A stretch of 37,035 bases of DNA from a virus, in IMG/VR virus record IMGVR_UViG_3300009085_000053, positions 1 through 37,035 of that record, one strand, 5' to 3'. Shown one piece after another: positions 26,030-27,982 of this stretch. Below the pieces are notes generated by a model. It searched no databases. It saw only the letters and a program-made list of their open reading frames with translations, and had not been told where the DNA came from. Position 1 is the stretch's first letter. Each line of letters opens with the position of its first letter. Made by a program: the position numbers and the translations under genes.

Positions 26030-27982
26030 ATGGGATCAAAGGGAATGACTCCGAAAGAATACCGCGCAATCTTTACTGGATTACGCAAGACAATGGGAAC
26101 TCTTACAGAAATTCAGAGGAAAAACCTTTTAAGAATTTATCAAGAAGCGGCAAAAGAAGCAGGGACAACACTTGCCAGTATTGCAGACCGTGGCGTCAGT
26201 ATTGAGAAACTACAGCTCGAAGCAATGACGGAACTTTTAAAAAAAAGCGCGCAGATGGTAGCCGACGGAACGAATAAAGTAACTTTATCATTATTGAAAG
26301 ATGGATTTTCAAAGATAGGCGGAGCGCAACAGGATTTATTTAGCACGATAGCGGACAGGGCAGGATTAAAAATCAGCGGACTCGATACAATGACGATGGC
26401 AATCAATAACAGACTGATAGCCGCGACAGTAAATAGGACTTATGCCGACGGGTACACGTATTCGCAAAAGGTTTGGGGACAATTCGATGCGAATGGCCGG
26501 CCGATCGGAGTATATGGGGATTGGGTAAACAAGATAAAAAATATTTATAACCTTGGAGCGGCACAAGGGATTGATCCGGTACAGATTGCTCGAGACTTAG
26601 AAAAATATGTCACGTCAACAGACGGGAAACAATTCTTTACAGAGGGACGATGGGGAAAGCTTGTAGCAGGAACAGAAGATTATATCCGCAGGATAGGAAC
26701 AACAGGACCGGATTATCGGGCAATGAGAATTGTCCGCTCTGAAATGTATTCAAGTTTACAAACTGCGGCGATTGAATTCGGGCGTAGCAATGTCGGCTCT
26801 ACCGGCATGTACCGATGGGTTATGCAGGATGGTCGAGACGATTGGGGGTGTGAATGTGAGGAGTACGATGGACAATTATACAAAGAGGAAGATGTGCCTA
26901 GTTATCCTCATCCAAATTGTCACACGGCGGGAACGCTAGTTTTAACAAGTAAAGGAAATAAAAAAATACAAGATTTAAAAGTCGGTGAATATGTTATAAC
27001 AAAAGATAAGCAGATTAATAGAATATGCGGATTTTATGAAACAAAATATAAAGGGATTATCTTTATTTTTAAAACAGAAAGCGGCAAAGAAGTAAGAGTT
27101 ACTCCAGAACATAAGCTATTTGTTAACGGTGATTTTATTACCGCGGATAGAATTCAGCTTGGAGATTATTTCCAGAAGATACGATCCAACACAAAACCCT
27201 TCTCTTTTGTCAAAGCGGAATCGAAGCAATTCCCATTTTTTAGAAGAAAGAAACTTACTTTTTTTAGTATCAGCAATGGATTTTCTCGGACTGGTATGCC
27301 AATTTCCACCATCGACTTCGACGGCCAGACATTCGTCAGGGAAGGCAATATCGATATTGAATATGTCGAAAGCAAAATTTGGGATTGGCTTTTCTCCAAT
27401 AAAGGAAAGAGCGTCAAACATAATCTTTTCATTTTCGGATCGGACAGTATTGTTATAAAACTTGGCTCTTTTAACTTTTTCAAATTTTGGCATCTTTCTT
27501 CCGGTAACGGCGGCGTGACAGGCGGAAGTCGAAGGCTTGAAGCCGTTAAGATAAGCCCGTCTAATTCCTTCCTTTGCATCTGGAATATCATATCCGGCAG
27601 AAAGAAGGCGTCTGTTAATAACATTCCTAGAGACGCCAAAACATTCGGCTATTCTTTTAACAGAAAAACATTTTTCGCAAAAAAGGTTTTGAAGAATCGC
27701 GGAATCAATGTTGATTTTTCTACTCATAATGATAAAATAATAAGCATAGAAACAGAATATGTCAATGAAAGTGTTTATAACATCAGGGTTGAGAATGATG
27801 AAACATATTTTGCAAACAGTATCCTTTCACATAATTGTGGATGTACAATCGTTCCGGAAATAATGAACATGGACGACTTTGTCCAAATGATGAAAGATTA
27901 TAAAGACGGAATCGACACTCCTGATTCAAGAAAAATGGATGTGTGGGCAAGTAAGGAAGGATTGACTATTGTGCAATCGTAG
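26030..27982 (+). CDS. MuF/SPP1 gp7-like minor head protein interrupted by an intein
   Basis: A 650-residue precursor. Residues 1-296 and 603-650 are the extein; the 306-residue intein (297-602) is removed to leave a 344-residue head protein. The extein ends in the family motif DGRDDWGCECEEYDG...PSYPHPN, joined to CGCTIVPE. In the family this is the conserved HPNCRC element, so the intein sits at the most conserved site. The gene follows the portal, as is usual. The last extein part (MDDFVQMMKDYKDGIDTPDS) is soluble. Its only SD is a GAGG ~10 nt upstream. A terminator follows at 27999. Confidence 0.9.
   Translation: MGSKGMTPKEYRAIFTGLRKTMGTLTEIQRKNLLRIYQEAAKEAGTTLASIADRGVSIEKLQLEAMTELLKKSAQMVADGTNKVTLSLLKDGFSKIGGAQQDLFSTIADRAGLKISGLDTMTMAINNRLIAATVNRTYADGYTYSQKVWGQFDANGRPIGVYGDWVNKIKNIYNLGAAQGIDPVQIARDLEKYVTSTDGKQFFTEGRWGKLVAGTEDYIRRIGTTGPDYRAMRIVRSEMYSSLQTAAIEFGRSNVGSTGMYRWVMQDGRDDWGCECEEYDGQLYKEEDVPSYPHPNCHTAGTLVLTSKGNKKIQDLKVGEYVITKDKQINRICGFYETKYKGIIFIFKTESGKEVRVTPEHKLFVNGDFITADRIQLGDYFQKIRSNTKPFSFVKAESKQFPFFRRKKLTFFSISNGFSRTGMPISTIDFDGQTFVREGNIDIEYVESKIWDWLFSNKGKSVKHNLFIFGSDSIVIKLGSFNFFKFWHLSSGNGGVTGGSRRLEAVKISPSNSFLCIWNIISGRKKASVNNIPRDAKTFGYSFNRKTFFAKKVLKNRGINVDFSTHNDKIISIETEYVNESVYNIRVENDETYFANSILSHNCGCTIVPEIMNMDDFVQMMKDYKDGIDTPDSRKMDVWASKEGLTIVQS
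27116..27727 (-). CDS. Antisense homing endonuclease (Vsr/DUF559-like, EDxHD type) inside the intein
   Basis: A 203-residue ORF on the minus strand. An N-terminal HTH (~22-44, SVKRIAECFGVSRNVINRRL) is followed by an endonuclease core: Glu98/100 (SENEKIMFDAL), Asp126 (FNIDIAFP), Glu137-V-Asp139-GGNW-His144 and Asp153 (SIADTKK), then WELLRFRF. This E...D...E-x-D...H...D order is that of Vsr-fold/EDxHD homing enzymes. Its codons are in exact register with the sense codons. None of its 13 Leu is TTA/CTA and none of its 17 Ser is TCA, since each would put a stop in the sense frame; in the 570-1205 gene 11 of 21 Leu are TTA/CTA. It has no SD, and a promoter ends 9 nt before its ATG. It is the only credible minus-strand gene here. 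Confidence 0.8.
   Translation of the reverse strand: MSRKINIDSAILQNLFCEKCFSVKRIAECFGVSRNVINRRLLSAGYDIPDAKEGIRRAYLNGFKPSTSACHAAVTGRKMPKFEKVKRAKFYNNTVRSENEKIMFDALSFIGEKPIPNFAFDIFNIDIAFPDECLAVEVDGGNWHTSPRKSIADTKKSKFLSSKKWELLRFRFDKREGFCVGSYLLEIISKLNSIRGNKITVNK
27737..27765 (-). promoter_or_regulatory. Antisense promoter for the embedded endonuclease
   Basis: On the minus strand: TTGACA (complement of 27760-27765), a 17-nt spacer, and TATTAT (complement of 27737-27742), 11 of 12 matches to consensus. The ATG at 27725-27727 begins 9 nt after the -10, so the transcript would be leaderless or carry 2-3 nt. It lies within intein block F/linker coding DNA on the other strand. Confidence 0.7.

Follow-up and report, generated by a model that had tools for sequence, protein, structure and literature searches.

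The window analysed here, that is the whole stretch of 37,035 nucleotides of viral DNA, very likely carries a mobile intein together with a homing endonuclease that is expressed separately, from the strand antisense to it. More broadly, two-strand inteins, in which opposite strands of one DNA segment encode the intein and the homing endonuclease that belongs to it, are likely to represent a previously unrecognised class of mobile element, diversified across phages of several bacterial phyla and across several insertion sites, and including a second branch in which the nuclease is overprinted with the splicing domain under dual constraint. In the proposed mechanism, the plus strand would encode an intein that splices in cis, with a long and probably unstructured linker between its two Hint halves, and the minus strand of this linker would be a separate gene for a homing endonuclease made of a helix-turn-helix (HTH) region and an EDxHD (Vsr-like) domain. 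Upon co-infection, we infer that the separately expressed nuclease would cut an intein-free MuF allele near the HPN^C codons; repair would then copy intein and nuclease together, and the intein would splice out, so that the head protein stays functional. What can be read directly from the sequences are both frames, the homology and predicted fold of the nuclease, selection on the antisense frame, the empty alleles, the recent spread of relatives and the decay of some nucleases.

The features of the locus are collected in Table 1. An earlier note on this DNA had placed an antisense nuclease gene within the intein linker, and the coordinates, phase and motifs that it gave for the intein and the minus-strand ORF proved correct: the sense ORF is open throughout and the codons of the minus-strand ORF are the exact complement of the sense linker codons (codon-complementary phase). 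The intein boundaries, set by alignment to 10 relatives, give the junctions HPN/C...SHN/CGC (slashes marking the boundaries), and the NCBIfam models intein_Nterm and intein_Cterm both match. The window intein presents the nucleophile Cys1, the block B TxxH motif, block F, the terminal His-Asn and the +1 Cys, and C1, T62, H65, H305 and N306 are invariant among 11 aligned intein sequences. In-frame insertion is evident in relatives, whose intein-free homologues join precisely at the insertion site. The MuF protein of the window phage itself has a single weak match in GenBank. No sense-strand nuclease was found in the intein polypeptide by Pfam and PHROG searches, and a group I intron was rejected as there was no Rfam match at the locus at E values up to 1.

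Table 1. Features of the two-strand intein locus (positions in the window)
Feature	Position	Strand	Evidence or remark
Host gene: MuF-like phage head morphogenesis protein	26030..27982	+	Open frame, 650 codons/aa; PHROG head morphogenesis E=6.6e-22
N-extein	26030-26917	+	MuF host gene before the intein
C-extein	27836-27982	+	MuF host gene after the intein
Intein, 306 residues, Cys1 ... SHN, +1 Cys	26918..27835	+	At HPN^C site of MuF protein; Pfam Intein_splicing E=1e-16
N-terminal splicing part, blocks A and B	26918..27115	+	AlphaFold pLDDT about 84-94, residues 1-90
Block B TxxH = TPEH	27101-27112	+	T62 and H65 invariant
C-terminal splicing part: block F VYNIRVENDETYFAN, block G ILSHN	27773..27835	+	Alignment; pLDDT 89-94; NCBIfam intein_Cterm
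Antisense homing endonuclease gene, 203 codons and TAG stop	27116..27727	-	PF18741 E=2.5e-7; DUF559 0.004; wholly inside intein
Nuclease stop TAG	27116..27118	-	Complement of sense CTA (Leu), two codons after block B His
Helix-turn-helix region, nuclease residues 9-43	27599..27703	-	Three helices in model
Catalytic domain, nuclease residues 98-171	27215..27436	-	Alignment of 12; Foldseek
Candidate promoter TTGACA-17-TATTAT	27737..27765	-	11/12 consensus matches; -10 box ends 9 nt before nuclease ATG

The minus-strand protein is supported by both profile and fold as a predicted homologue of the EDxHD/Vsr-like homing endonucleases. The EDxHD/Vsr-type nuclease claimed for it is borne out by the PF18741 and DUF559 profiles and by a fold match to I-Bth0305I, and the profile search that had been proposed as a check did return matches. 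PF18741 (MTES_1575) and DUF559 match 12/12 family members, with a best value of 1e-14; the window nuclease scores 31.1 bits with PF18741, below the curated cut-off of 38.2, and at least one homologue, that of contig L010, scores 51.9 bits, above it. The HTH region is weak in the window protein itself; the best values among the 12 members are 8.5e-5 for HTH_23 and 7.4e-6 for Sigma70_r4. In the 12-sequence alignment, E100, D126, E137-VDGGNW-H144 (including D139) and D153 are invariant; the assignment of E100, D126, H144 and D153 to the letters of the EDxHD motif is our own. The sense-strand complement of the catalytic motif reads MPISTIDFDG. A phmmer search of PDB with the nuclease returned nothing useful, but comparison of folds succeeded: the best PDB match of the AlphaFold model, which includes an N-terminal helical DNA-binding region, is 3r3p, the catalytic domain of I-Bth0305I (Foldseek, E=6.8e-4, TM 0.74 by target length). 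The stop codon of the gene overlaps the codons that follow the block B TxxH motif, as had been noticed.

Structure prediction of both products, also suggested earlier, separates the two reading directions. The Hint fold is confidently modelled at both ends of the sense product. Residues 91-262 of the sense linker have a pLDDT below 50, mostly 22-42 (sense product modelled from its own alignment), compared with 85 for the nuclease model; because of this difference, the same stretch of DNA probably specifies a tether without fixed structure when read in the sense direction, and a folded enzyme when read from the other strand.

The arrangement is not confined to the window. About 27 intact independent loci carry an antisense nuclease in an intein, always in the same phase; the earlier note, in describing a single locus, understated what is a widespread family, in one branch of which almost all of the splicing domain is overlapped by the nuclease gene. 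When the nuclease alone served as query, 11 viral contigs were recovered, and in 10/11 it is antisense and in the same phase, within an intein in the HPxC motif of a MuF gene with an open sense frame. In the eleventh, L010 (4911-5489), a free-standing nuclease lies just downstream of a portal-MuF fusion gene, on the opposite strand, and may be a source of the intein nucleases or a sister to them. Searches with the boundaries of MuF inteins added L055, L056, L057, L059 and L067-L069, with the HTH part not found in L057. The whole MuF-intein protein had found no relative among viral contigs; alignments of the N-terminal intein part worked instead. Similarly, the window nuclease matched no GenBank phage and no plasmid, and more distant family members were needed as queries. 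In particular, the nuclease of L067 matches 106 GenBank phage records, which represent a more divergent second branch. Representatives were examined from Jerseyvirus, two Gordonia groups, Klebsiella Jedunavirus, Idiomarina and Rctr197k, and all of them have an intein with the nuclease gene on its antisense strand. The phages carrying these elements include those of Salmonella (Jerseyvirus), E. coli (Kagunavirus), Gordonia, Klebsiella and Idiomarina, together with uncultured phages. A genome scan with the window-type alignment gave no match, whereas a second-branch alignment gave L091, a Massilioclostridium contig whose MuF gene has the same antisense arrangement, and L092; an alignment of all second-branch nucleases was too divergent for scanning.

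There are at least 3 insertion sites for inteins with an antisense nuclease. In Kagunavirus fEg-Eco06 the intein is at a different MuF site, before CRARDGM, and in Rctr197k the intein interrupts a dCMP deaminase gene (Pfam 5e-11) and not MuF. The Rctr197k product APU88838.1 (L074:616-1968), annotated as 'putative head morphogenesis protein', is this intein-interrupted dCMP deaminase, and its annotation was probably carried over from intein similarity. In the tree of nucleases, the second branch forms one clade (97/99) and the window groups with six close relatives (100/97); the tree leaves a single versus multiple origin of the arrangement unsettled. The second-branch nucleases (L070-L077) keep the E, D, E core, lose the Asp at D139 and often lose the His, so that their catalytic chemistry may differ. 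A distant relative in Leptolyngbya phage Lbo-JY46 (L075:2474-3298) is free-standing, between tRNA genes.

Evidence for mobility, namely empty alleles and recent spread, comes from relatives rather than from the window phage, as do the dN/dS values given below. There are 386 GenBank records that match the Jerseyvirus gene, and in 58 of them the match extends over at least 80% of the query with its intein; most Jerseyvirus records have no intein. The Jerseyvirus empty alleles examined join at HPNC/RS, with a variant motif there in SP124, and the empty alleles of relatives read HPHC/QC or HPNC/RST at the junction. In Jerseyvirus, pS is 0.33-0.43 in the exteins and 0.05-0.12 in long segments of the intein; LSPA1 and CTH7 are 69% identical in the N-extein and 98% in the intein. 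In Kagunavirus, the inteins are 99.7-99.9% identical to one another; that of KMB36 is 99.7-99.8% identical to those of BEU35 and fEg-Eco06, on exteins that are 89-90% identical. Young inteins on diverged exteins are the pattern given by recent homing into diverged backgrounds. As a side observation, Escherichia phage BEU33 (L094:740-800, a record marked unverified) is without the intein, and one Thr codon is missing from the insertion site as well; the N-exteins of BEU33 and of the intein-carrying BEU35 are 99.4% identical, and the former could represent imprecise intein loss.

Against its own reading, the earlier note would have counted missing homologues, a missing nuclease fold, or a broken nuclease in an intact intein. 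Homologues and a predicted nuclease fold exist, whereas broken nucleases within intact, open inteins do occur, in L025 and L092. The former has an open intein and a nuclease with an internal stop and the changes E137 to Q and D126 to N; the latter (L092:3345-4754, a Thiotrichales MAG contig) has a shortened intein with a shrunken antisense nuclease. Both belong to a small minority and fit the normal decay of homing endonucleases. L092 is also an apparent intermediate toward a mini-intein, and a mini-intein without a nuclease, with an HPNC motif like that of MuF inteins, is found in L058:3501-3896.

It is conceivable, if unlikely, that the antisense nuclease is real but no longer drives the intein, which would be fixed or spread passively, and that it persists because it serves some different function, for example in recombination or in the exclusion of competing phages. 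Marker exclusion by phage homing endonucleases, for which T4 SegG is cited in a passage of PMC2988022, would agree with this, as would the second branch, which is without canonical catalytic residues and yet under purifying selection (Jerseyvirus). However, Jerseyvirus and Kagunavirus show both presence-absence polymorphism and inteins younger than the exteins around them, as expected of active homing, and window-type members have kept their catalytic residues.

Within the preferred reading, an intein with its homing endonuclease on the other strand, the linker must stay translatable, and the nuclease gene avoids TTA, CTA and TCA for this reason, as they would create stop codons in the sense frame. 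The absence of these codons had been noticed earlier and is highly significant: none occurs among the 13 Leu and 17 Ser codons of the window nuclease, against a usage in the rest of the window of 42% of Leu for TTA/CTA and 30% of Ser for TCA. When calculated from the codon usage of each contig, the P value of avoidance is 1.9e-6 for the window, 2.8e-8 for L004 and 4.7e-6 for Idiomarina. All three codons are absent from 11/11 window-type nuclease genes and from 6/6 second-branch genes tested, with summed log10 P of -25 and -19, respectively, values that treat the loci as independent and are thus overstated. Singly, most G+C-rich window-type members are non-significant (L006-L009 and L011, P 0.06-0.35). 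In the contig, 0/63 other 200-codon windows are free of these codons. Such avoidance bears on the possibility that the two halves act as a split intein, the C-half being made separately and the sense readthrough being incidental, as a variant of fractured genes. Although EDxHD/Vsr-like nucleases are known to lie between split-intein halves in phages, this is very improbable: no intact locus has an interrupted sense frame, and codons that would create a stop are avoided even in genomes that use them often, for which a split intein would have no need. A split intein or fractured gene was accordingly rejected, the host gene not being broken into two ORFs.

Selection on the two frames was evaluated at the codon level, as the earlier note had proposed, and the nuclease frame is under purifying selection in relatives. 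Across 11 window-type loci, the variability at sense positions 1/2/3 follows the usual pattern in both splicing parts (N-terminal 0.48/0.37/0.71, C-terminal 0.41/0.35/0.67) but is 0.64/0.40/0.52 in the linker, where the most variable is sense position 1, that is nuclease position 3. Codon periodicity flips strand inside the linker. Among nine Jerseyvirus alleles, dN/dS over the body of the nuclease is 0.17 (0.09-0.25) when its own antisense frame is used and 0.89 (0.55-1.44) for the sense frame; as a control, the same antisense phase in Jerseyvirus exteins gives 1.13 and 1.81. At the nuclease end that lies over blocks A and B of the Hint domain, there are signs of constraint on either frame, with values of 0.21 for sense and 0.41 for antisense, although the intervals are wide. 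When codons were shuffled in a nuclease-synonymous way, sense-linker identity was 0.203 versus 0.247 observed, which is not proof of sense selection, since relatedness alone raises identity. That coding bias in the sense linker should have produced the antisense ORF as a side effect, with an accidental resemblance to nucleases, is scarcely credible: long antisense ORFs are common in G+C-rich phage genes, several relatives among them, but the window is A+T-rich, so that such an ORF is unlikely there, and the profile and fold matches, the catalytic residues conserved in 12 sequences, the codon-position flip and dN/dS that favour only the antisense frame, and the predicted disorder of the sense linker all stand against it, a chance antisense ORF having been rejected as already refuted by the dN/dS contrast.

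Expression of the nuclease would depend on its own antisense promoter or ribosome site. The candidate promoter of the window is the sole minus-strand site that good in its 37 kb, and it would give an almost leaderless mRNA. A weaker promoter-like pair is found at the same -38 position and offset in L002-L005. As a class, promoter-like sites are not significantly enriched (5 found vs 3.7 expected), and for this reason the candidate is to be taken as suggestive. In the second branch, the His codon of block F (GHVYNL) is complementary to the start codon of the nuclease, and in most loci GAGGT, a putative ribosome site about 8-12 nt upstream, is the complement of the Asn-Leu codons of block F. The nuclease gene of this branch thus begins within block F; in Jerseyvirus it runs as far as intein codon 2, where its stop is found.

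The system can be compared with several known ones. Members of the EDxHD homing endonucleases are known from group I introns or as free-standing genes. Those of the I-Bth0305I type share with the window nuclease the catalytic fold (3r3p), the combination of DNA-binding and nuclease domains and the phage setting, whereas the window gene is antisense within an intein and overlaps Hint codons. Fractured phage genes, in which split inteins flank a free-standing Vsr-like endonuclease gene, were reportedly described by Dassa et al. in 2009. They have in common with the window the nuclease superfamily, the phage genes and a nuclease gene inside an intein, but their host gene is two ORFs, whereas that of the window remains a single open frame, since the antisense gene contains no codon that would create a stop in the sense direction; the two-strand arrangement may be the unsplit counterpart of fractured genes.

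Natural inteins have been reviewed as three layouts: full-length with an in-frame nuclease, mini and split (PMC7765530). Bifunctional inteins (e.g. LAGLIDADG) resemble the window intein in the Hint domain, insertion into a conserved motif, nuclease-driven homing and empty alleles; in these, however, the nuclease domain and the splicing domain belong to one polypeptide (PMC3943268, PMC7765530), while in the window it is a separate opposite-strand protein and the sense linker is predicted to be disordered. Antisense homing endonuclease genes are present in nuclear rDNA group I introns of Didymium (PMC9548176), where the homing gene is likewise on the strand opposite to the spliced host gene. There, the antisense gene lies in non-coding sequence, as the host element is an RNA intron, whereas in the window the same DNA is also translated as intein. 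The same elements in related phages have been recognised as inteins, both in Kagunavirus records of a 'minor head protein with inserted intein' and in Jerseyvirus, for which an intein in the capsid morphogenesis protein is noted in a section of PMC8425127 that reports no antisense nuclease for it. In agreement with the view of the earlier note that the arrangement is undescribed, no description of an antisense nuclease inside an intein was found in the open-access literature searched; an earlier report in subscription papers is possible.

If true, this would represent a fourth natural intein layout, in which the nuclease is separate from the splicing polypeptide and yet part of one DNA unit. 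It would also plausibly connect whole inteins with split ones and with homing genes that stand free. The nuclease genes are almost always missing from annotation in the phage records examined, being unannotated in GenBank or, in one record (PK2), a hypothetical protein. The family would offer dozens of natural overlapping antisense gene pairs, with close relatives at hand for measuring dual selection, and matched intein-plus and intein-minus E. coli phages exist, thus making both homing and the effect of antisense coding directly testable.
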